Positions 47,726 through 60,093 of a stretch of DNA of 64,000 nucleotides are shown piece by piece (positions within the stretch are counted from its first letter, which is position 1; each line of letters starts with the position of its first letter). Both the position numbers and the translations under genes were made by a program. Origin of the DNA: Hyphomicrobiales bacterium (GTDB lineage Bacteria > Pseudomonadota > Alphaproteobacteria > Rhizobiales > Rhizobiaceae). Under the pieces are notes generated by a model, which did no database searches, was not told the DNA's origin, and was given only the letters and a program-made list of their open reading frames with translations. The stretch spans positions 34,435 to 98,434 of the forward strand of contig JAPLOZ010000092.1 of assembly GCA_026400435.1 (NCBI GenBank). Reading direction: 5' to 3'.

Positions 47726-48115
47726 TCAAGCCGGCCCGACGATGCCCCATGTCACGCCGAAGGCGTCCTTAACCTGTCGGTATTTGTCGCCCCAGAAGGC
47801 AACTTCCAGCGGCACCACGACTTCCGCTCCCGCTTCGGTCGCCCGTTTCCACCAGGCGTCGGCGTCGTCGACGATGATGTGCAGCGTGACGTTCTTCTTC
47901 GGTTCGTCGGGCGTACCGTGTTCGGGGAACGGGTCGTTGAACATCATCGCGCCGCCGTTGATCTCGACATGCACATGCATCGAGCGGCCGTCCGGTGTCT
48001 CCCTGCGGTCGATGAGTTTGGCGCCGAACGCCTTCTCGTAGAAGGCTGTCGCCGCCCTCGTGTCGCTCACCGTGAAATAGGCGATCACGCCGGGAATCTT
48101 CATAGTCTCTGCCAT
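47726..48115 (-). CDS. VOC family (PhnB/glyoxalase-like) protein
   Basis: VIAYFTVSDTRAATAFYEKAFGAKLIDRRETPDGRSMHVHVEINGGAMMFNDPFPE. Confidence 0.92.
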   Translation of the reverse strand: MAETMKIPGVIAYFTVSDTRAATAFYEKAFGAKLIDRRETPDGRSMHVHVEINGGAMMFNDPFPEHGTPDEPKKNVTLHIIVDDADAWWKRATEAGAEVVVPLEVAFWGDKYRQVKDAFGVTWGIVGPA

Positions 48116-48128
48116 TGTCGTTGCACCT

Positions 48129-48620
48129 TCAGAGTGTCTTCAAGAGGTCGGCCAGCTGGTCGGCGCATTGGCCCCAGCCTTCGTGGAAGTCCATCTTTTC
48201 GTGGGCTTCGCGATCCTCCACCGTCCAGTGGCGCACGCGAGCCGTGTAGCGCGTCTTGCCGACATCAACGGTTTCAAACGAGACGATCGCCACCATGAAG
48301 GGTTTCGGCGAGGGTTCCCATGGCGAGGTAAAGGCGTCGGTGAAGACCAGCTTTTCGTTCTTCACCACATCGAGATAGATGCCCTGGCTGGGATGGTCGC
48401 CGCCTTCGGGATCGCGCATCACGATCAGGCTTGTCCCGCCAGGCCTGACGTCGAGGGCGGCGCCGGGCGTCGTCCAGGGCAGCGGTGCGAACCATTGCTT
48501 CAACAGCTTGGGTTCGGTCCAGGCGCGATACACCTTGTCGCGCGGCGCATCGAAAATGCGCTCCAGAACCAGTTCCCGCTCGGCTGGAAACACCGCGCTG
48601 ACATCGGCCCGTATGTTCAT
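48129..48620 (-). CDS. SRPBCC/AHSA1 family protein
   Basis: ERELVLERIFDAPRDKVYRAWTEPKLLKQWFAP; start approximate. Confidence 0.92.
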   Translation of the reverse strand: MNIRADVSAVFPAERELVLERIFDAPRDKVYRAWTEPKLLKQWFAPLPWTTPGAALDVRPGGTSLIVMRDPEGGDHPSQGIYLDVVKNEKLVFTDAFTSPWEPSPKPFMVAIVSFETVDVGKTRYTARVRHWTVEDREAHEKMDFHEGWGQCADQLADLLKTL

Positions 48621-48716
48621 CATTCCCTCCGTGTTCTCTGTGTCCATGGTTCTATGACGAACGGGCAAGGTCCGTTTCGACAGGACGGGAAGGCTTTTTC
48701 GTCGGCTCCAGCTGTC

Positions 48717-49964
48717 TCACGCAGCGGGTGTCGACAGCCTGTCGAGATGCATGCGGATATGCGCGGCATCGGCCGGCGAATTGGCGAGCGCAATCGCGCG
48801 GCAGAAGGCTTCGCGTGCTTCGTCATGGCGACCAAGCTGCATCAGCAGGCCACCCTTGACGCCGAAATAGTGGAAATAGCCTGACAGCTTCGGTTCCAGC
48901 GGCTCGATCATGGCGAGCGCGGCTTCCGGCCCGCGCGACTTGGACACCGCGACGGCGCGGTTCAGCGTGATGACCGGCGACGGTTGCATGGCTTCGAGCG
49001 CGCCGTAGAGCAGGTCAATCTGCTGCCAGTCGGTGTCCTCCGCACGGGCGGCGCGGTCATGAAGCGCTGCGATTGCCGCCTGGATCTGGTAGGGTCCGGG
49101 CCTGCCGTGGCGCATCGCCTTGTCGATCAGGGCGAGCCCCTCTGCGATCATCTTGGCGCTCCACAACCCGCGATCCTGATCCTCCAGTAGAACCACCGCG
49201 CCATCGGCGTCGAAGCGGGCGCGGGAGCGAGCATGCTGCAAGAGCAGCAGCGCTGTGAGCCCCATGATCTCGGGCTCGGAGGGAAACAGCCGCAGCAGCA
49301 GGCGCGACTGCCGGATCGCTTCGTCGCAGAGCGGGATGCGCATGGCGACATCGCCGCCGCTCGCCGAATAGCCCTCGTTGAAGACGAGATAGACCATGGC
49401 CGCCACCGCGCCCAGCCGCTCGGCGCGCTCGACCGGACCGGGTGTCTCGAACGGTACGTTGGCGGCGGCGATCCTCGCCTTGGCGCGGGTGATGCGCTGC
49501 TCCATCGCGCTTTCGCTGACCAGGAAGGCCCGGGCGATCTGCTTCACCGACAGGCCCGACACGATGCGCAGCGCCAACGCCACTTGCTGAGTCGCCGGCA
49601 GGTCGGGATGGCAGCAGACGAACAGCAGCCGCAAAATGTCGTCGCGGTAGTCGGCGCCGTCCAGTCGCTCGACCAGCGCGGCTTCGGCGTCCTCCAGGTC
49701 TGACAGCACCCGCTCGTCCGGCAGCGGAGCGGTTTTCGAGCGGCGTCGCACCATGTCGATCGCGGCGTTGCGCCCGACGAAGATCAGCCACGCGGCCGGG
49801 TCGCGCGGCGGGCCGTTCTGCGGCCAGTTCTTCAGCGCGCGCAGGCAGGCATCCTGGAAAGCCTCTTCGGCGAGGTCGAGGTCGCGAAAGTAGCGCAGCA
49901 GCGCCGCCACTGCCTGCGGCCTCGCCGCCGCGACAAGCGGGTCTATCCAGGAGATGTCGCTCAC
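48717..49964 (-). CDS. ECF42-type RNA polymerase sigma factor with C-terminal extension
   Basis: LDLAEEAFQDACLRALKNWPQNGPPRDPAAWLIFVGRNAAID..., long TPR-like C-terminus, adjacent DGPF protein. Confidence 0.92.
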   Translation of the reverse strand: MSDISWIDPLVAAARPQAVAALLRYFRDLDLAEEAFQDACLRALKNWPQNGPPRDPAAWLIFVGRNAAIDMVRRRSKTAPLPDERVLSDLEDAEAALVERLDGADYRDDILRLLFVCCHPDLPATQQVALALRIVSGLSVKQIARAFLVSESAMEQRITRAKARIAAANVPFETPGPVERAERLGAVAAMVYLVFNEGYSASGGDVAMRIPLCDEAIRQSRLLLRLFPSEPEIMGLTALLLLQHARSRARFDADGAVVLLEDQDRGLWSAKMIAEGLALIDKAMRHGRPGPYQIQAAIAALHDRAARAEDTDWQQIDLLYGALEAMQPSPVITLNRAVAVSKSRGPEAALAMIEPLEPKLSGYFHYFGVKGGLLMQLGRHDEAREAFCRAIALANSPADAAHIRMHLDRLSTPAA

Positions 49965-50335
49965 AGGGTCGCCGCGACCGGATTGAGCACGCCGACGGGG
50001 CGTATTTCATAGCCGCCGCCGGATGGATTCGCCGCGCAAAGCTCACGCGCGAAGGCGACGGCTTCTTCGAGATTGTCGCAGTTGACGGTATAAAAGCCGA
50101 GCAACTGTTCCTTGGTCTCGGCGAACGGCCCGTCGAGAACCAGCGTCTCGCCCCTGACCTGGCGCAGCGTTGTTGCAGCGGTTGTCGGCAGCAGCCGCGC
50201 GACCGGGCCGAGTTTGCCGGCCCTGGCATATTTCTCCTGCACGACAGCGAGCCTTTGCATGACAGCGTCGTCCTGATCCTTGGTCCACGACGATACGGCG
50301 TCTTCCTGGGCGTAGCAGAGAATGGCGTAAAGCAT
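49961..50335 (-). CDS. YciI/DGPF-motif family protein
   Basis: MLYAILCYAQED...LVLDGPFAETKEQLLGFY. Confidence 0.94.
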   Translation of the reverse strand: MLYAILCYAQEDAVSSWTKDQDDAVMQRLAVVQEKYARAGKLGPVARLLPTTAATTLRQVRGETLVLDGPFAETKEQLLGFYTVNCDNLEEAVAFARELCAANPSGGGYEIRPVGVLNPVAATL

Positions 50336-50744: not shown

Positions 50745-52736
50745 ATGCTACGCGGCTACGACGTACTGCGTTCGCTTCATTGCAAATTAAGCCGGCAAAG
50801 GACCGACGGCCTGCGTCGGAGGCTTGCCGGCGGCAGCGCGCTGCTGGCGCTGGCATTTGCCGCGAACTTCGTCTCCCTCGCACCCGCGTCTGCCCAGGAA
50901 ACCAGCATCATCAATCCGGGCGCTATGGCGGTCACCGGCTTTTCCGGCACCGTCATTCCAGGGATAGACGAGGGCCTGCCGCCCGGCGTCGATCCGGTCG
51001 ACGAGACCTTCATCGATGCCGAACGCGCCTCCCTGCGCGTCTTCGACGTGTCGGCGCTTGGCGGACCACCTTCGGGCCAGCTCGTCTATACGCCGCAGCC
51101 CTTCGAAGTCCTGGCCAGCCAGATCGGACAGGTCTTCGCTCTCACCTATGACGACGGCGTCCGCGACGGCGCAACCTCGGACGTGCCCAACCTCTATGCC
51201 GGCGCAACATCGCTGCATGGCATCCGCATCATCACCCCTGACGCCGACGGCGATGGAAGGCCCGAGCGCGAGCGCCGCGGCAAATCCGGCGCCGCCTTCA
51301 TGGCCGGCCAGTTCGGCGAGGAGAACGGCGGCGGGCCTGGCTCGATCTGGAAGGTCGACGGGCTAACCGGCGAGGTGTCGCTGTTCGCCACCATCGACGG
51401 CAACAGCGGGCCTGGCATCGGCGATGTCAGCTTCGACAAGGCGCATCGCGAGTTCTTCGCCTCCGACCTCGACAGCGGCCTGATCCACCGCATCGCCGCC
51501 GACGGCACGCTGGTTGACACGTTCGACCACGGCGTCGCCGGGCGTCCGGCCCGCAGCCTGGACCCGATCGCGGACGACGGCTCGGTGATGGACATCCAGG
51601 GCGCGGCCTTCGACAGTGAGGACCCCGACACCTGGGGCTTCACGCAGGACGAGCGCCGCGTCTGGGGCGTCGCCGCGCATGGCGGCCGCGTCTACTACGC
51701 GGTCGGTGACAAGGCCGAGATATGGTCGGTTGGCATCGCCAGCGACGGTTCTTTCGCCGCCGACGCGCGCTGGGAGCTGACCGTCGACGCCGAGGAAGAC
51801 CTGCCTGTCACCGACATCGCCTTCGACAGCAAGGGCTTCATGTATCTCGCCCAGCGCGGCGAGACGGAAAACCGTTACGACTATTCGCAGTTTGCCGATT
51901 CCGGCGACGGCGAGGTGCTGCGCTACTGGCGCGAGAGCCCGGACGATCCCGCGACGGAATCGATCTGGGTTCCCGTGCCGCAGGAATATGCGATCGGCTT
52001 CCCGGAGAAGCATCGCCAGTCGGCCGGCGGCATCGACCTGCAATATGGCTACGACGCTGAGGGAAACTTCAACCCCAACGCCTGCTCGGCTACGCTGGTT
52101 GCGACCGGCGACAAGCTGCGCGACAACCCTGAACTCGCCGAACAGCTCGCCGCCGGCGGGCCGCTCGCGGTGCACGGCGTGCAGATCACCGCGACATCTT
52201 TGGTGCGCCCGCAGAACGAGCCGCCATTCGGCTCATGGTTCGTCGACTTCGACGGCCTCTTCGAGGATCCCGAGGTCGAGGGTCATGTCGGCGACGTCGA
52301 GGTCTGGCACCCCTGCGAGGGCCGCGCCGGGTACTATGAACGGATTCCCTATCCCGGGGGCTATCCGGATCCTTACTGGCCGCCGGAATTTCCACCTCCT
52401 GGCAACTATCCGCCCTGCATCGACGTCGATGCGGTCGAGTATTACTGCACTCCGGCCGGGCTCGAGGCCGATATCTATGTGCGTGACGTCGCGGGTATCG
52501 GCGGCGATTCCGTCAAGGCCGATTCCAGGTCGCCAGGCGTGGGCATTGGCCCGCTCCAGCAGACCCGGATACCGGGCGCTCCTTTCACCATCGGAATGAG
52601 CGGCTTCTTCCCGGGCGATACGGTGAATGTCGGCCTCTGCTTCTACAGGCAGTCCGACGCTGACGCTGGCGGCTACTATCCTTGCTGCAAAGTCGTGGTC
52701 CCGCTCGCTACCCCCCCTGTCAGCTGCGAACCGTGA
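50745..52736 (+). CDS. Large secreted protein of unknown function (propeller-like N-terminus, Cys module C-terminus)
   Basis: GGAGGGAAACGGCC-ATG; hydrophobic leader LAGGSALLALAFAANFVSLAPASA; repeated GxIWKV/LIHRIAADGTLV/AEIWSVGI strand patterns; no known catalytic motif. Confidence 0.75.
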   Translation: MLRGYDVLRSLHCKLSRQRTDGLRRRLAGGSALLALAFAANFVSLAPASAQETSIINPGAMAVTGFSGTVIPGIDEGLPPGVDPVDETFIDAERASLRVFDVSALGGPPSGQLVYTPQPFEVLASQIGQVFALTYDDGVRDGATSDVPNLYAGATSLHGIRIITPDADGDGRPERERRGKSGAAFMAGQFGEENGGGPGSIWKVDGLTGEVSLFATIDGNSGPGIGDVSFDKAHREFFASDLDSGLIHRIAADGTLVDTFDHGVAGRPARSLDPIADDGSVMDIQGAAFDSEDPDTWGFTQDERRVWGVAAHGGRVYYAVGDKAEIWSVGIASDGSFAADARWELTVDAEEDLPVTDIAFDSKGFMYLAQRGETENRYDYSQFADSGDGEVLRYWRESPDDPATESIWVPVPQEYAIGFPEKHRQSAGGIDLQYGYDAEGNFNPNACSATLVATGDKLRDNPELAEQLAAGGPLAVHGVQITATSLVRPQNEPPFGSWFVDFDGLFEDPEVEGHVGDVEVWHPCEGRAGYYERIPYPGGYPDPYWPPEFPPPGNYPPCIDVDAVEYYCTPAGLEADIYVRDVAGIGGDSVKADSRSPGVGIGPLQQTRIPGAPFTIGMSGFFPGDTVNVGLCFYRQSDADAGGYYPCCKVVVPLATPPVSCEP

Positions 52737-52747
52737 GGGAGGGAACG

Positions 52748-55700
52748 ATGACAAACGCTGATTTCCCGCTCGCGACGAGCAGAACCGCAACGCTCATGGA
52801 GACGATCATGAAACCCCTGTCATACGCCGGGCGCCCCGTGCGCTGGCTGATGGCGGCCGGGCTCGCGCTCGCCGCCATGCAGGCAGTGCCGGCAAGAACC
52901 CAGCCGGCCGCCGATGTTCCACTGGGCCTCGATCTCGATCCCGGTCCGACGCACCACCCAAGGCCCGGAGAAGCCGAACCGTTCTTCACCAAGACCGGCG
53001 AGCAGCTCAACTGTGACTATGTCAGATACACCCTCCGCTTCGGCGCTGCGGGCGATCCGGCGAAATTCCTCGATCCTGCCTTCATCGCCGAGATGCAGAA
53101 TGTGCGGCTGGATTTCCGCGACACGCTGCCGGCCGGTCTCGAGATCGTCGACGTAAAGGTGTCGGGCGACGGCACCGATGCCGCCGGCGGACCACTGCCC
53201 GCGCCGACCGTATCGACGACGACCAACCCCAACGACACGGTCAAGCTGGATGATTTCCGGCTGTCGACCAGCGACCTCGACGGCTCCGGCGAAATCGGCA
53301 GCCGCTACGTCGACTTCGTCATTGCGGCCAGGATCGACCATGCGGCCTTCCCGGCGCCGAAGATCGTCGTCAACCAGGGCTTTGTCGGCATCATTCTGGT
53401 GGGTGGCCCCGCAATCTTGGTGCCTTCGCATGATCCTGAGCTGCCGGACGACGGCGACTTCAGGACCGGCGAGCCAACCAAGATCCTGATCGATGTCGAG
53501 CGCTGCGATCGCCCGCCCCCGCCTCCACCGGGCGAGGCATGCTTCAAGGTCGAAACCGGCACGGTCGACTGCGTGCCGGGCGGCGGCGCCTTCATCTACC
53601 ACATGCCGGTCGGGCCTGACCTCGGCGGCAAGTGGGTGCAGTTGAGGACAACCACGCCCGGCGTCACTGTCGCGCCTCTCTCGCAGCTCGCCCCGATCGG
53701 CGGCGGCGTGCTCAACTGGACAATCACCGGCGCTTCGCCCGGCGATGTCGTGCAACTCGTCGTCACCGGCGTCGAAACCTACGCCGGGCCGGAGGAAGGC
53801 GTCGGACTCTGCTGTTCGCAGACCGTCGACATCGTCATCCCGCGCGACCTCAGGTGCCCGCCGCAGCATCACGAACCCGACATCAAGGTCGAGAAGCGGG
53901 CCGACGTCGCGCGCTGCACACCGGAAGGCGGCTGCGACTTCACCATCCGCGTCACCAATGTCGGCGACGGCCCTTACAACGGACCGATCGTGCTCGACGA
54001 GGTGACGGCGCCCGGCAGCGCGGCAGTCGTTTCGGGACCGAACCCGCCCTGGGCCTGTGCGCCCATGGCGAGCCCGATGAGCTGCACGCATCCGGCGACC
54101 ACGCTGGACCCCGGCGAATGGGTCGAGCTCAAGCTCGGCTTTGCGCCCGGACCCGGCTGGGACTGGAACGTCATCCGCAACTGCGCCGAGTACGACTACA
54201 CGGCCAGCGGCAAGCCCGACGTGTTCGGTTCCACCGCCAACGACAAGGCCTGTGCCTCGATCCCGATCTGCCGTCGCGGCGACCCCCGCTGCGATCCGCC
54301 GGTCGAGAAAAAGGTCGACCTGCGCATCACCAAGGACTCGCGTTCAGTCGCCTGCACCGCCGACGGCGTCTGCTGGTTCAACATCCGCGTGTTCAACAAC
54401 GGCAGCGAGAACTATGTCGGTCCGCTGACCGTGGTCGACGAATACCCGACGGGCGTACCCGCTGCGTCGACTTTCGGGCCAAACCCGCCCTGGACCTGCG
54501 GTCCGATCGGCGGCGGCCAGTTCCAGTGCGACCATCCGGGCGTCAATCTCGCGCCGGGGGCATTCATCCCGATCACCGTGCGGGCGGTCGTCAACGACGA
54601 CTATCCGGGCGACATTATTCGCAACTGCGCGCAAGTGAATGCGATAACGGGCGAAGCCGACCTCGCCAACAACCGGGCATGCGCGCAGATGCGCATTCCC
54701 AACCGCGAACCCGGCCAGCCGGCGCTGCGCATCACCAAGACCTGCGAGGACACGGCGGGCGCGGCGGCGGTATCCTGCCGGATCACGGTGACAAGCGTGG
54801 GCACTGCCACGCCCACCGGTCCGGTCCGTGTCGCCGATGCAGCCACGATCCTCGGCACGGCGACACCGGTCCAGATACTCACTGTCACCCCTGACGGTGG
54901 AGAATGGGCCTGCGGTCCGGTGCCGGCAAACGCACTGTCGTGCCAGATCCCCGGCGCGGTCATGACGCCCGGAACGAGCCGTCACTTCGACGTGACCGTC
55001 CAGGATTCCGGATATGCCCGTTTCGAGAACTGCGCGCGGGGGTCGTGGGGTCCTGCCCCCGGCAACGACATCGTCTATCCTTTCGGCGAGGCGTGCGCCC
55101 AGGGCGGCACCACGATCCACGTCGAGAAAACCGGCGACAAGGAGTGCACGGCGGGCATGCCCTGCACGTTCGAGATCACGATCACCAATGACGGCCCGAC
55201 CGGTTTCTCCGGCCCGGTCCGCATAGGTGACGCGATCGGCGTGGGCGGCACGCGGCTGGAAGGGGTTGAGATCACCGAGATCTCCCCGCCCTTCGGCTGC
55301 TCGCCGGAACCGACGACGCTGCCCATGTCCTGCGTCGCCACCTTGTCACTCGGCCCCGGCGAATCGCGCGTCCACCAGGTGACGGTCGTCATTCCGGAAG
55401 GGCCGTTCGCCAACAACAGGCAACCGGTGCCGGCGCGCAATTGCGTCGGCGTCGTGTCCCCCGATACGCCGGTGGCTTCGGCCGAACGGATGATGTCATC
55501 CGGCGCGGCCACCACCGGCCGTCCGGGCGCCGAGCCCTATGCCTGCCACGACTTCACCGTAGGCAAACCGGTGGTGGAAGAGTGCTCGAAGGGCTTCGTC
55601 ATGAACGACGCCGGCCGTTGCGTCTGCCCGCAGGGAACCAGCTTCCGCAACGGGCAGTGCAGGCCGACCGGTGGCGAGCCGCCACCTCCGCCTCCCCCGC

Positions 55701-56146
55701 CGCCTGGCGTCGGGCTATGCAAGCTGCTGCCGGGCCAGATCCGGACGCAGGACGGACGTTGCGTGTGCCCGCGCGGCACGGAGCTGGTGCGTGGCGAGTG
55801 CCGCAGGCTGCCTCCGCCGCAGTGCGAACTGCTGCCGGGCCAGATCCGCACCAAGGACGGACGCTGCGTCTGCCCACGCGGCACCAGCCTCATCAAGGGG
55901 CAGTGCCGTGAGGTGGAGGTCGAGTGTCCGCGCGGCACGGTGCTGCGCAAAGGCCGGTGCGTGAACATCGAGCTGGAATGCCCACGGGGCAGCGTGCTGA
56001 GCAACGGGCGCTGCGTGAAGATAGAGCGTGAAACCTGCCCGCGCGGCTTCGTCGGCACACCGCCGAACTGCCGCCGGATACAGATCGACCAGCAACTTCA
56101 GCAGCTGATAGACCCGAAGCAGCGGCAAAAGCTTCAGATCCAGTAG
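52748..56146 (+). CDS. Large secreted DUF11-like repeat protein with Cys-rich C-terminal repeats
   Basis: GGGAGGGAACG-ATG; signal-like LMAAGLALAAMQAVPARTQ; four ITK/VEK...FTIRVTNVG...PPWACGP...NCA units; CPRGTxLxxGxC tail repeats. Confidence 0.8.
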   Translation: MTNADFPLATSRTATLMETIMKPLSYAGRPVRWLMAAGLALAAMQAVPARTQPAADVPLGLDLDPGPTHHPRPGEAEPFFTKTGEQLNCDYVRYTLRFGAAGDPAKFLDPAFIAEMQNVRLDFRDTLPAGLEIVDVKVSGDGTDAAGGPLPAPTVSTTTNPNDTVKLDDFRLSTSDLDGSGEIGSRYVDFVIAARIDHAAFPAPKIVVNQGFVGIILVGGPAILVPSHDPELPDDGDFRTGEPTKILIDVERCDRPPPPPPGEACFKVETGTVDCVPGGGAFIYHMPVGPDLGGKWVQLRTTTPGVTVAPLSQLAPIGGGVLNWTITGASPGDVVQLVVTGVETYAGPEEGVGLCCSQTVDIVIPRDLRCPPQHHEPDIKVEKRADVARCTPEGGCDFTIRVTNVGDGPYNGPIVLDEVTAPGSAAVVSGPNPPWACAPMASPMSCTHPATTLDPGEWVELKLGFAPGPGWDWNVIRNCAEYDYTASGKPDVFGSTANDKACASIPICRRGDPRCDPPVEKKVDLRITKDSRSVACTADGVCWFNIRVFNNGSENYVGPLTVVDEYPTGVPAASTFGPNPPWTCGPIGGGQFQCDHPGVNLAPGAFIPITVRAVVNDDYPGDIIRNCAQVNAITGEADLANNRACAQMRIPNREPGQPALRITKTCEDTAGAAAVSCRITVTSVGTATPTGPVRVADAATILGTATPVQILTVTPDGGEWACGPVPANALSCQIPGAVMTPGTSRHFDVTVQDSGYARFENCARGSWGPAPGNDIVYPFGEACAQGGTTIHVEKTGDKECTAGMPCTFEITITNDGPTGFSGPVRIGDAIGVGGTRLEGVEITEISPPFGCSPEPTTLPMSCVATLSLGPGESRVHQVTVVIPEGPFANNRQPVPARNCVGVVSPDTPVASAERMMSSGAATTGRPGAEPYACHDFTVGKPVVEECSKGFVMNDAGRCVCPQGTSFRNGQCRPTGGEPPPPPPPPPGVGLCKLLPGQIRTQDGRCVCPRGTELVRGECRRLPPPQCELLPGQIRTKDGRCVCPRGTSLIKGQCREVEVECPRGTVLRKGRCVNIELECPRGSVLSNGRCVKIERETCPRGFVGTPPNCRRIQIDQQLQQLIDPKQRQKLQIQ
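55718..55927 (+). repeat. Two tandem 105-bp (35-aa) repeats in the Cys-rich tail
   Basis: CKLLPGQIRTQDGRCVCPRGTELVRGEC / CELLPGQIRTKDGRCVCPRGTSLIKGQC; units begin 55718 and 55823. Confidence 0.85.
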
Positions 56147-56164: not shown

Positions 56165-56197
56165 GCCCCGCCGGTTCGCCGGCGGGGCTCTTTCTTT
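56165..56197 (+). terminator. Rho-independent terminator with UUCG tetraloop
   Basis: GCCCCGCCGG-TTCG-CCGGCGGGGC then TCTTTCTTT. Confidence 0.88.
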
Positions 56198-56224: not shown

Positions 56225-57382
56225 CTACGCGTTCCGGAAGACCCGCTGGCCGTCGATCCACACAGCGGAGACGTCGAGCCTATGCGACAGCGCAACGAAA
56301 CTGGCGGCCGAACCGGGTGTCAGCGCACCAAGCCTCATGGTGCCCCCAAGCGCACGAGCGGGATAGAGAGAGGCCATGCGAATGGCCTCGCCAAGCTCGA
56401 TGCCGATACGCCGGTGCGCAAACAGCACTGCCGAGATCATGTCCAGATCGGCGCCCGCCAGCGTACCGTCGTCGAGCGTCAGCCTGCCATCCTTGCGATG
56501 GATGGTGCGGCCGTTAAGCGTGAAGGAGCGCATGCCGGTGCCGATGGTCGCCATCGCATCGGTAACCAGCAGGATGGTTCCCGGGCCGCGCTTGGCGCGC
56601 ACCGCGATCCCGACAGTGGCAGGATCGACATGAATGCCGTCGGCAATCAGTCCGGCCGACATTCGGCCGTCGTCGAGTGCCGCTCCAGCCAGGCCCGGCT
56701 CGCGGTTCCCAATCTGGCTCATCGCGTTGAACAGATGCGTCGCCATCGTGGCGCCGGCATCGGCATAGGCGCAGGCGGTGGCGTAGCTCGCCTCGGTATG
56801 GCCGAGGCTGACGACGATGCCGGCGCCAGCCAGCGCCGCGACCTGCCCGGTCGTGACCGATTCCGGGGCGACCGTTGTCAGCAGCGCCGGCAGCCCGGCG
56901 CGCGCTGCGATCAGCGCCGACAGGTCGGCGTCGGTCATCGGCCTGATCAGTTTCGGGTCGTGCGCGCCCTTGCGGGCGACCGAGAGATGAGGACCTTCGA
57001 GATGCAGCCCCGCGAAGCCTGGCACCTTGCTTCGCGCGGCCTCGATACCGGCGGCGACCGCTGCCGCGGTGACCTCGGGCGTGTCGGTGATCAGCGTGGG
57101 CAGCAGCGCGGTGGTGCCAAATCGCGCATGCGCCCGGCAGATCGTCGCGATGCCCTCGACATCGGGATGGTCATTGAGCATGACGCCGCCGCCGCCATTG
57201 ACCTGCAGGTCGACAAAGCCTGGCGCCAGCAGGTCGCCGGCCTCGACGCTTTCGGCGCCGGCCGCAACTGCGCCGCGCGGGACAATCGCCTCGACAGTCG
57301 CGCCACGCGCGAGCAGCGCCGCGTCGTCGTGCCAGCGTTCACCGTCGAATATGCGGTGTGCCCGGTAGGCGATCGTATTCAT
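56225..57382 (-). CDS. nagA: N-acetylglucosamine-6-phosphate deacetylase
   Basis: LAPGFVDLQVNGGGGVMLND, GLHLEGPHLS, VSLGHTEASY, HLFNAMSQ. Confidence 0.95.
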   Translation of the reverse strand: MNTIAYRAHRIFDGERWHDDAALLARGATVEAIVPRGAVAAGAESVEAGDLLAPGFVDLQVNGGGGVMLNDHPDVEGIATICRAHARFGTTALLPTLITDTPEVTAAAVAAGIEAARSKVPGFAGLHLEGPHLSVARKGAHDPKLIRPMTDADLSALIAARAGLPALLTTVAPESVTTGQVAALAGAGIVVSLGHTEASYATACAYADAGATMATHLFNAMSQIGNREPGLAGAALDDGRMSAGLIADGIHVDPATVGIAVRAKRGPGTILLVTDAMATIGTGMRSFTLNGRTIHRKDGRLTLDDGTLAGADLDMISAVLFAHRRIGIELGEAIRMASLYPARALGGTMRLGALTPGSAASFVALSHRLDVSAVWIDGQRVFRNA

Positions 57383-58419
57383 ACGGTCTCCGTGACCTTG
57401 CGCAGGTTGGGGGGCTGGTCCGGATCGAGGCCGCGCCGCCGCGCATACGCCTCGACGAAGGCGTAGAACGACACGATCAGCGTCAGCGGGTCGGTCAGCG
57501 GATGGCCGGTCGCCGCATGCGGCAGCAGGCTAGACTTCGACGCCAGCGCCGATGTGATGAACACCGATGCGCCTTTGCCGGACAGGATGTCGGCGGTCTC
57601 GGCCATCGACGGTTCCGAGGCGTCGCGCGCGGCGAGCGCCACGACGGGAAAGCCCGGTCCGACCAGCGCCAGCGGCCCGTGCATCACCTCGGCTGCGCTG
57701 TAGGCCTCGGCATGCATGGCGCAGGTTTCCTTGAATTTCAGCGCCGCCTCGTTGGCGATAGCAACCGATGGCCCGCGCCCCAGGATGAAGAGCGAGTTTT
57801 CACCAGCCGAGGCTTCGCTCGCCAGCGCATCGGCGATGCCGATCCAGTCACAGCCTATCGCCTTGCGAAAATGCTCCGGCAGGTCGCGCAACGCCGACAG
57901 CAGGTCCCGGTCGTCCGTCCAGTGCGCCAGAAGCAGCAGCCCGGCGACCGCCGAATTGACGAAGCTTTTGGTCGCCGCCACGCTCCTTTCCACGCCGGCC
58001 AGCATGTCGATGGCGTGGTCGGAGGCTTCGGCCAGCGGGGAGCCGGCCGTGTTGGTAATGGCGATGGAGAGCGCGCCGGCAGCCCGCGCGGACTGCGCCA
58101 TTGCGACGATATCGGGGCTCTTGCCCGACTGCGAGATCGCAAGGCAGGCGGCGCCGTCGAGCTTGAGCTTCGCCTTGTAGATCGAGGCGATCGAGGGTCC
58201 AAGCGAGGCGACCGGGACGCCGGCGGTGAGTTCCGTAGCGTATTTGAGGAACGACGCGGCGTGGTCGGACGAACCGCGCGCCACCGTCGCCACGACGCGC
58301 GGCGACAGGGCGCGCAGCGCCCTACCTGCCGTGCCCAGCGCGCCGTCGGAGGCGTCGAGCAGCCGCGCCGCCGCGTCGGGAATCTCCAGTATTTCGCGCC
58401 GCATGTGGGTTTCGGTCAC
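57379..58419 (-). CDS. SIS domain protein (GlcN-6-P deaminase/GlmS-isomerase-like)
   Basis: TVARGSSDHAASFLKYATEL, CLAISQSGKSPDIV, LGRGPSVAIANEAALKFKETC, two SIS domains. Confidence 0.93.
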   Translation of the reverse strand: MTETHMRREILEIPDAAARLLDASDGALGTAGRALRALSPRVVATVARGSSDHAASFLKYATELTAGVPVASLGPSIASIYKAKLKLDGAACLAISQSGKSPDIVAMAQSARAAGALSIAITNTAGSPLAEASDHAIDMLAGVERSVAATKSFVNSAVAGLLLLAHWTDDRDLLSALRDLPEHFRKAIGCDWIGIADALASEASAGENSLFILGRGPSVAIANEAALKFKETCAMHAEAYSAAEVMHGPLALVGPGFPVVALAARDASEPSMAETADILSGKGASVFITSALASKSSLLPHAATGHPLTDPLTLIVSFYAFVEAYARRRGLDPDQPPNLRKVTETV

Positions 58420-59201
58420 GCCTGGGCAGCTCCTTCATGCGTATCGGCAAGCCTCAGCTCGACGACAAAATCATAGGCATCGCCCCTGTAGACGGAGCGG
58501 GTGAACTCGATGACCTTGCCGCTCGCCAGATAGGAGATGCGCTCGATCGTCAGGCTGGCCGAGCCGGGCGCGGCGCCCAGCAGCGCCGCCTCGGCCTCGT
58601 TCAGGTTCTTGGCAGACAGGCGCTGGATCGCGCGCACCGGGCGATGGCCTGTTTGCTCCAGGGCGGCATAAAGGGATGCTCCGACCGCCTGCGGATCGGG
58701 CAGGGTTGTCGCGGCGAGCGACGCGCGTTCGATGGCGAGCGGCGTGTCGTCGGCGATGCGCAATCGCGCCACCCGCGCCACCCGTTCGCTGGGCGACAGG
58801 CCAAGCGTCATCATCTCCTCCGGCGACGGCGAGTAGAGGCCGCGGTCGAGCCATTGCGAGCGCACCTTCATGCCGCGCCGCGCCATGTCTTCGGTGAACG
58901 ATGTGAGCCGCGACAGCGGCTGCTCCACGCGGTTGACGCGCGGCGCCACGAAGGTGCCGGATCCATGCCGTTGCACCAGGATGCCGCCACGCACCAGGTC
59001 TTGCACCGCCTTGCGCACGGTGACGCGCGATACGTCGGCCTTGACCGCGATGTCGCGTTCGGACGGCAGCGCATCGCCGGGGCCGATGACGCCGGAGTTG
59101 ACCGCCTCCTCGATGCTCTTCCTCAGCTGCAGATAGAGCGGTGCGCCCTTCTGGGGCGCATCGCGGACAGAATGGAAAATGCGTTCGGCCGCGTCAGCCA
59201 T
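58416..59201 (-). CDS. GntR family (HutC-type) transcriptional regulator
   Basis: PLYLQLRKSIEEAVNSGVIGPGDALPSERDIAVKADVSRVTVRKAVQDLVRGGIL; UTRA-like C-terminus. Confidence 0.95.
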   Translation of the reverse strand: MADAAERIFHSVRDAPQKGAPLYLQLRKSIEEAVNSGVIGPGDALPSERDIAVKADVSRVTVRKAVQDLVRGGILVQRHGSGTFVAPRVNRVEQPLSRLTSFTEDMARRGMKVRSQWLDRGLYSPSPEEMMTLGLSPSERVARVARLRIADDTPLAIERASLAATTLPDPQAVGASLYAALEQTGHRPVRAIQRLSAKNLNEAEAALLGAAPGSASLTIERISYLASGKVIEFTRSVYRGDAYDFVVELRLADTHEGAAQA

Positions 59202-60093
59202 CGACGTGGTCCTGCCCGGCGTCGCCGGCCTCTGCGAAAAGCCGCGCTGCCATGGCGACGGCGCCGCCGAGCGCGTCGCTGCGTGGCGGAGCCAGCATCG
59301 TGCGAAGCGGCGCCGACAACCGATCGGCGTAAAGCGGCGCCAGTCCGCCAAGCAGTGAGAGGGGGGAGGTTCCGTCGAGCTCAAGCGCCGCGAGCGAGGC
59401 TTCCACGGCCAGAACCGCGCGCGCGAGAATTGCCTTGGCGACCGGATCGCCTTTCGCCTCATATTCGAAAACCTTGGGCGCGAAGCCGCCGAAGTCGCCT
59501 GGCCGCGCGGTGATTGTGAACTCGACGACATCCTGTGGATTGCCGCGAAACACGGCAAGCATGGCATCGGTCAGCGGCGATGCCGGCAGGATGCCGTCAT
59601 GCGCCAGCAGCGTCTCCTCCAAGAGGTCGCGGCCGATGCGTCCGCCGCCGCCCTGGTCGCCGACCTGGAAGCCCCACCCACCGATGGCGCGCGCCACGCC
59701 GTTGCGGCGCACCAGATAGGCGGTGCCGGTGCCAAGAATGGCGATCGCGCCGTCGCCGTCATTGCCGATCGCGCCTTCGAGCGCGATCAGCGCGTCGGTC
59801 ACGACACGGCTCGTTGCGAAGGGCAGGATGGTTTCCAGCTGCCGCGCGTAGGTGCCGACATTCGTCCCGGCCAGGCCGAGCACCGCCGACGTCCCGGCGA
59901 TCAGCGCAGCATCCTTGCCGGCGTCGGCAAACGCCTGCCGCGCGGCGTCCACGATGTTCGCGCGTGCGCCGGTCAGGTCGGTGCGGATGTTGGCGGGGCC
60001 GCTCTTGCCGCGGCCAATGATTTCGCCGGCCTCAGTCGCGAGCGCAGCCCTGCAACCGGTACCTCCACCATCGATTCCCAGCAAGAACGTCAA
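59194..60093 (-). CDS. BadF/BadG/BcrA/BcrD ATPase family kinase (GlcNAc/MurNAc kinase-like)
   Basis: LLGIDGGGTGCRAALAT, GTGTAYLVRRNG, GWGFQVGDQGGGGRIGRDLLE; TTG start at 60093 preceded by GGAGGAAGG. Confidence 0.88.
   Translation of the reverse strand: MTFLLGIDGGGTGCRAALATEAGEIIGRGKSGPANIRTDLTGARANIVDAARQAFADAGKDAALIAGTSAVLGLAGTNVGTYARQLETILPFATSRVVTDALIALEGAIGNDGDGAIAILGTGTAYLVRRNGVARAIGGWGFQVGDQGGGGRIGRDLLEETLLAHDGILPASPLTDAMLAVFRGNPQDVVEFTITARPGDFGGFAPKVFEYEAKGDPVAKAILARAVLAVEASLAALELDGTSPLSLLGGLAPLYADRLSAPLRTMLAPPRSDALGGAVAMAARLFAEAGDAGQDHVDG

Follow-up and report, generated by a model that had tools for sequence, protein, structure and literature searches.

A split head-and-stalk protein pair of Hyphomicrobiales that probably docks through an ancient pair of Ig-like cysteine modules

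Why should two adjacent genes, each encoding a protein with an N-terminal leader, carry related cysteine-bearing domains, at the very end of one product and in the interior of the other? We addressed this question for a locus in a 64,000-nucleotide stretch of DNA (the window) from a Hyphomicrobiales draft genome (121 contigs, 88% complete), with Mesorhizobium sp. YM1C-6-2 and Aminobacter as close relatives when judged by these two genes. The first gene encodes the head protein and the second, 11 bases downstream, the stalk protein; an inner ATG at 52808 is a possible alternative start of the stalk gene and would give a product of 1112 aa (Table 1). A preliminary description of the locus had reported ribosome-binding sites, leaders and a terminator after the second gene. 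The motif GGAGGGAA indeed precedes both genes, and both proteins have a leader as judged by eye. A terminator-like hairpin does follow the stalk gene, although such sites are not enriched in the 64-kb stretch over shuffled sequence. The same description called both proteins giant, which is too strong a word for a head protein of 663 aa. The flanks appear ordinary by eye from their translations, with a sigma-factor-like gene and small proteins upstream (47726-50335, minus strand) and a nagA-like, SIS-like and GntR-like set downstream (56225-59567, minus strand). Gene-neighbourhood comparison found no third gene conserved with the pair across loci, the neighbours varying by lineage.

Table 1. 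Features of the head and stalk genes, in positions of the window
Feature	Position	Strand	Evidence
Ribosome-binding site of head gene, GGAGGGAA	50731..50738	+	sequence
Head gene (P0001, 663 aa): leader, beta-propeller, Pro-rich hinge, module 1	50745..52736	+	
Leader of head protein, ending ...LAPASAQ	50745..50897	+	sequence, by eye
Beta-propeller domain, without Pfam family	50907..52325	+	AlphaFold, Foldseek, weak DFPase sequence match
Calcium-loop-like motif DADGDG (D.D.DG) in propeller	51240..51257	+	sequence
Pro/Tyr/Gly-rich hinge	52326..52415	+	sequence
Module 1: Ig-like, six invariant Cys, C-terminus of head protein	52404..52733	+	
Ribosome-binding site of stalk gene, GGAGGGAA	52738..52745	+	sequence
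Stalk gene (P0002, 1132 aa): leader, DUF7929, module 2, DUF11 repeats, Cys-rich tail	52748..56146	+	
DUF7929 (PF25551), residues 78-250, Lys82-Asp125-Asn209 triad, predicted isopeptide bond	52979..53497	+	Pfam E 1.4e-81
Module 2: Ig-like, five Cys, residues 262-371	53531..53860	+	
Cys-Cys pair of module 2; second Cys the best candidate for an unpaired Cys	53810..53815	+	Cys counts and losses in relatives; inference
Four Cys-paired DUF11-type Ig repeats (stalk)	53864..55582	+	PF01345 E 1.2e-16; own profile finds four
C-terminal tail: CPxG...GRC Cys repeats, basic end	55583..56143	+	sequence
Terminator-like hairpin: 10-bp all-GC stem, T-rich tail, 3' of stalk gene	56165..56188	+	

The preliminary description had aligned the end of the head protein by eye with a stretch inside the stalk protein over about 105 residues, and had named profile comparison and structure prediction as ways to check the match; both confirm that modules 1 and 2 are homologous. 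In a single BLASTP comparison, the C-terminal 108 residues of the head protein show 29% identity to module 2 over 102 residues (E = 1e-7). Comparison of profiles built from 28 orthologues of module 1 and 26 of module 2 with hhalign gives a probability of 97% and E = 3e-11. The real pair scores 62.2; 200 column shuffles reach 21.4 at most and a reversed profile 11.0, and with the DUF7929 and DUF11 domains that lie in the same stalk protein the module profile reaches 11-20. Moreover, the profile of either module retrieves the other in most loci, and AlphaFold places eight strands in the same order in both, as a predicted sandwich (pLDDT mostly 81-92 in module 1, and about 75 with one low-confidence loop in module 2). 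The cysteine pattern comprises six invariant cysteines in module 1 and five in module 2. The module was rightly called unassigned: no credible Pfam match was obtained for any of 31 modules, and module 2 matches none of the sequences of solved structures. We considered whether the modules are divergent DUF11 repeats, and ruled this out since their profiles score 13-20 against DUF11, no better than shuffles.

Beyond the modules, the two proteins differ in architecture, and the earlier proposal of a propeller-like protein paired with a DUF11 stalk is borne out by Foldseek, which matches the head model to propellers and the stalk model to tandem Ig rods, including integrin alpha legs and the pilin BcpA. 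The head protein has no family in Pfam or NCBIfam. Its AlphaFold model (mean pLDDT 70.6) is good at residues 100-340 and in module 1 and poor at residues 350-490, with pLDDT above 80 across most of the first half. DFPase, SMP-30 and NHL propellers are among its Foldseek matches, with E of about 1e-5 to 1e-6 and with TM-scores (0.2-0.4) kept low by the unreliable part of the head model. Against the sequences of solved structures, the head protein gives only weak DFPase matches of about 95 residues (E 0.016).

In the stalk protein, Pfam identifies DUF7929 at 272.9 bits (gathering cut-off 27) and DUF11 at 61.5 bits in three stretches (gathering cut-off 24.6). In a published DUF7929 example, Lys86, Asp129 and Asn213 form the predicted isopeptide triad (PMC12617251); the triad of the stalk protein has the identical offsets of 43 and 127, and all three residues are kept in 24 of 26 relatives. 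An intramolecular isopeptide bond is thus predicted for this domain from its sequence. Searches of the window's stalk protein against Pfam and NCBIfam found no known surface anchor, PG_binding_1 included, and its tail gives a weak match to the EB module that is under the cut-off (E 0.0014). PG_binding_1 does occur in three relatives (L196, L067 and L188, the latter two with head and stalk in one chain), where it sits between stalk and tail; this position suggests that the tail end may lie at the peptidoglycan in some lineages. The stalk partners of two divergent split pairs have a VWA_2 match, above the cut-off in L084 (275-4954, minus strand) and below it in L224 (3322-8490, minus strand).

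A survey of relatives reveals that head and stalk exist in two forms. In the split form, module 1 closes the head protein, leaving no more than 22 aa before the stop codon, and a downstream gene on the same strand carries module 2, which stands in front of the DUF11 repeats. This holds in 48/48 split loci, so that head and stalk genes co-occur side by side throughout, which the preliminary description had named as a check. In the fused form, a single chain runs on for 286-1806 aa past the propeller, mostly as DUF11 repeats and/or long variable tails; the C-terminal halves of the fused L070, L077 and L065 end in widely differing, strongly basic short repeats (RGSVVHRPKGS, HKKWKS and GKRGKYPNCYTPTCKQQ). 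With HMMER filters off, we found modules in 0/53 complete fused chains, and no chain carries both. DUF7929 is present in 13 of 101 relatives, all 13 of them from genomes with a split pair. The DxDxDG loop occurs in 45/48 split and 25/60 fused propellers, versus 8/108 shuffled sequences. One further locus, L164 (G118, 498-2615), has an in-frame stop, either real or a sequencing error, that parts the propeller from module 1, now an ORF of its own of 123 aa.

We also surveyed the pairing across genomes. Among 397 genomes of the order, 29 contain modules. Of these, 28 have exactly two, in most cases separated by about 1.1 kb; in the 29th, a more sensitive search detected a second, weaker copy. Three further genomes with modules came from a survey of 386 genomes of the class: two have both modules, and the contig of the third stops short of where the partner is expected.

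The history of these changes can be read from trees of the propellers and of the modules. The tree of 108 propellers contains at least seven changes between split and fused, five of which are forced by strongly supported branches. When the contrasted trait is whether or not a chain stops within 200 aa of its propeller, modules accompany the split in all of the few independent contrasts on supported branches (5/5; sign test p = 0.06), and there are seven such contrast pairs across the whole tree. The tree of 104 modules parts 52 copies of module 1 from 52 copies of module 2 by a single change with support of 98, while its few columns and some long branches make details within the clades unsure. 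Two clades separated by one change indicate a single old duplication, with the pair kept since then as one of each. The tree root is not fixed, and certain fused clades may have been without modules from the outset.

Two Mesorhizobium loci have gone back from split to fused. M. prunaredense (L047, 6158-9907) and M. muleiense (L048, 6806-10594) are nested in a split clade and share flanking genes with split relatives, and in both the propeller is joined to the end of the first DUF11 repeat, the two joins lying about 20 codons apart. Both modules and DUF7929 are gone, and the re-fused genes are still under selection (dN/dS 0.24 for the head, 0.39 for stalk and tail). Because one deletion over the gene border would remove both modules, their joint loss here is not independent support. 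Two more fused loci (L073 and L177) are likewise nested in a split clade and are without both modules.

The opposite reduction is seen in one genome, G173, where the pair (L196 = G173:C531, 338-2862, minus strand) has neither propeller nor DUF7929. Its head-side gene, which begins around ATG 2829 on the L196 minus strand, encodes only a leader and module 1. It overlaps by ATGA with a partner that encodes a leader, module 2 with Cys-Ser in place of Cys-Cys, a DUF11-type repeat, PG_binding_1 (E 1.6e-12) and a Cys-rich tail. With propeller and DUF7929 both missing from this pair, the modules emerge as its constant part; we found no further minimal pairs among relatives of G173 and G676.

Overall, the probable explanation for the shared module is that the locus encodes a split fibrillar-adhesin-like protein, the head of which is docked on the stalk by two Ig-like modules that form an ancient heterotypic pair. 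Head (the beta-propeller) and stalk (DUF7929, the DUF11 Ig rod and the Cys-rich tail) would together make up one protein, which is a single chain in most relatives. Where the protein is split, each half bears one copy of the anciently duplicated module; the two copies would bind each other outside the cytoplasm, and the propeller would thereby be mounted on the rod via the Pro-rich hinge, presumably as the binding end. The case for docking is genomic: the modules are homologous, strictly paired in adjacent genes and absent from single chains, they fall into two clades, they are lost on re-fusion, and they persist in the minimal pair. The preliminary description had seen a two-component extracellular or surface system here. 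The pair of propeller and stalk proteins stands, and a secreted or surface location is suggested by the leaders, the strict pairing of cysteines and PG_binding_1 in some relatives; what that description overlooked is that a protein usually made as a single chain is here divided in two, and that the modules track the split.

Shared modules need not bind each other. They could be independent ligand-binding, adhesive domains through which the two proteins reach a common target, which we regard as unlikely. Ig-like sandwiches are common ligand binders, and a distance-matrix test of co-evolution does not single out modules 1 and 2 (partial correlation 0.18, below several other domain pairs), in keeping with this alternative. 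However, some single chains should then also keep one or both modules, and 0/53 do, and the modules occur as one per clade in adjacent genes. Less probable still, and a reading to which we give little weight, is that the modules are recognized by a common export or assembly factor, or that they act as end caps stabilizing the ends exposed by the split. The constant place of module 1 at the C-terminus of split heads is the usual one for an export tag, and no outer-membrane export signal was seen, but module 2 is internal or near-N-terminal, the single-chain relatives manage the same head and stalk without a module, and the pair has no conserved neighbour gene across loci. Finally, it is very improbable that the modules are mere remnants of an old fission that duplicated an Ig domain at the break, and now have no function other than linking: they do sit exactly at the head/stalk break, and their two clades agree with one old duplication, but purifying selection acts on them (dN/dS 0.12-0.26 within the genus of the window), module 2 is better conserved than the adjoining DUF7929 (mean identity 0.65 versus 0.50), and both are retained in the minimal pair.

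Returning to docking between the modules, the cysteine counts hint at how the stalk itself might be assembled. From the propeller onward, the number of cysteines is even in 47/47 split heads and in 52/53 fused chains, which contain 4 to 88 cysteines, and it is even past module 2 in 43/43 stalk proteins. The whole stalk protein scores as odd by script in 38/43 rows, which share descent, as do the inspected rows, and so represent one conserved state and not 42 independent events. The five remaining rows are the free module 1 of G173, L096 (odd with DUF7929 included), L167 and L173 (a cysteine in the leader) and the G173 partner, which with its Cys-Ser is the only truly even stalk. The odd cysteine maps to module 2, with its five cysteines against six in module 1, and one of these five appears to be without an internal partner. 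The two class-level partners have lost the second and last cysteines of module 2 together and keep an odd count. We infer that in module 2 the second cysteine pairs with the last and the first with one member of the Cys-Cys pair, leaving the other member free; the counterpart of this free cysteine in module 1 would pair with the extra cysteine there.

Given the strict evenness elsewhere, a spare cysteine is unlikely to be kept without use. We set back a head-stalk disulfide, as the head protein has an even number of cysteines in 47/47 cases; that number agrees better with a reactive thiol or with a disulfide between stalks. These considerations permit a bolder and more tentative proposal, that the modules form a new family of heterotypic Ig-like docking domains outside Pfam, derived from one duplication, which joins heads to stalks extracellularly, and that the free cysteine of module 2 locks a disulfide-linked dimer of stalks.

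Our analysis provides a predicted partner and interface for a widespread, unstudied family of secreted proteins in Hyphomicrobiales, with the module-free single-chain relatives as a natural control. If the modules bind, they represent a new pair of docking domains for assembly outside the cell, and also a clear example in which binding between two partners has taken the place of a covalent link. Pfam has no entry for these modules, and the family could be named from the present alignments. We found no paper on propeller and DUF11 together in rhizobia or with fibrillar adhesins, and one that names DUF7929; as far as searches of non-subscription literature reach, a split architecture with a module pair outside Pfam is undescribed.

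Among known systems, the general plan resembles that of fibrillar adhesins and fibrillar-adhesin-like proteins. In these long secreted proteins, a distal head sits on a stalk of repeated Ig-like domains, for which DUF11 is a named stalk domain, and the C-terminal region is expected to serve as the anchor (PMC9210967). The likeness lies in the repeated Ig-like stalk and in the propeller as a putative head. Here, in contrast, two genes encode the head and the stalk, which 53 relatives combine in a single chain; the propeller that forms the head has no Pfam family, and the hosts are Gram-negative alphaproteobacteria. As head and stalk are not in one chain and the anchor is only putative, we do not class the pair as a fibrillar adhesin without qualification. 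DUF7929 appears solely as a predicted isopeptide domain in the study that names it, together with DUF11/CLIPPER isopeptide domains (PMC12617251). The DUF7929 of the stalk protein is likewise complete, with its triad spaced as published and DUF11 repeats after it; the domain is located here in the stalk partner of split pairs, adjoining module 2.

Two further comparisons concern how such a pair would work. The head resembles DFPase, SMP-30 and NHL propellers in its Foldseek matches and its weak, partial sequence match to DFPase. Integrin alpha also places a propeller head with a DxDxDG loop on legs of tandem beta-sandwiches, and these legs are the best PDB match of the stalk model; however, our propeller matches the DFPase, SMP-30 and NHL types and not integrin, there is no beta chain, and the likeness is one of arrangement, without shown sequence homology. 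Cohesin-dockerin and similar pairs provide the parallel for docking, in that paired modules mount one secreted protein on another. Modules 1 and 2 are distinct from these in being Ig-like and homologous to each other, and a comparison made via Pfam alone finds no sequence relation to them; as expected of a heterotypic docking pair, the two partners always occur together, one of each.
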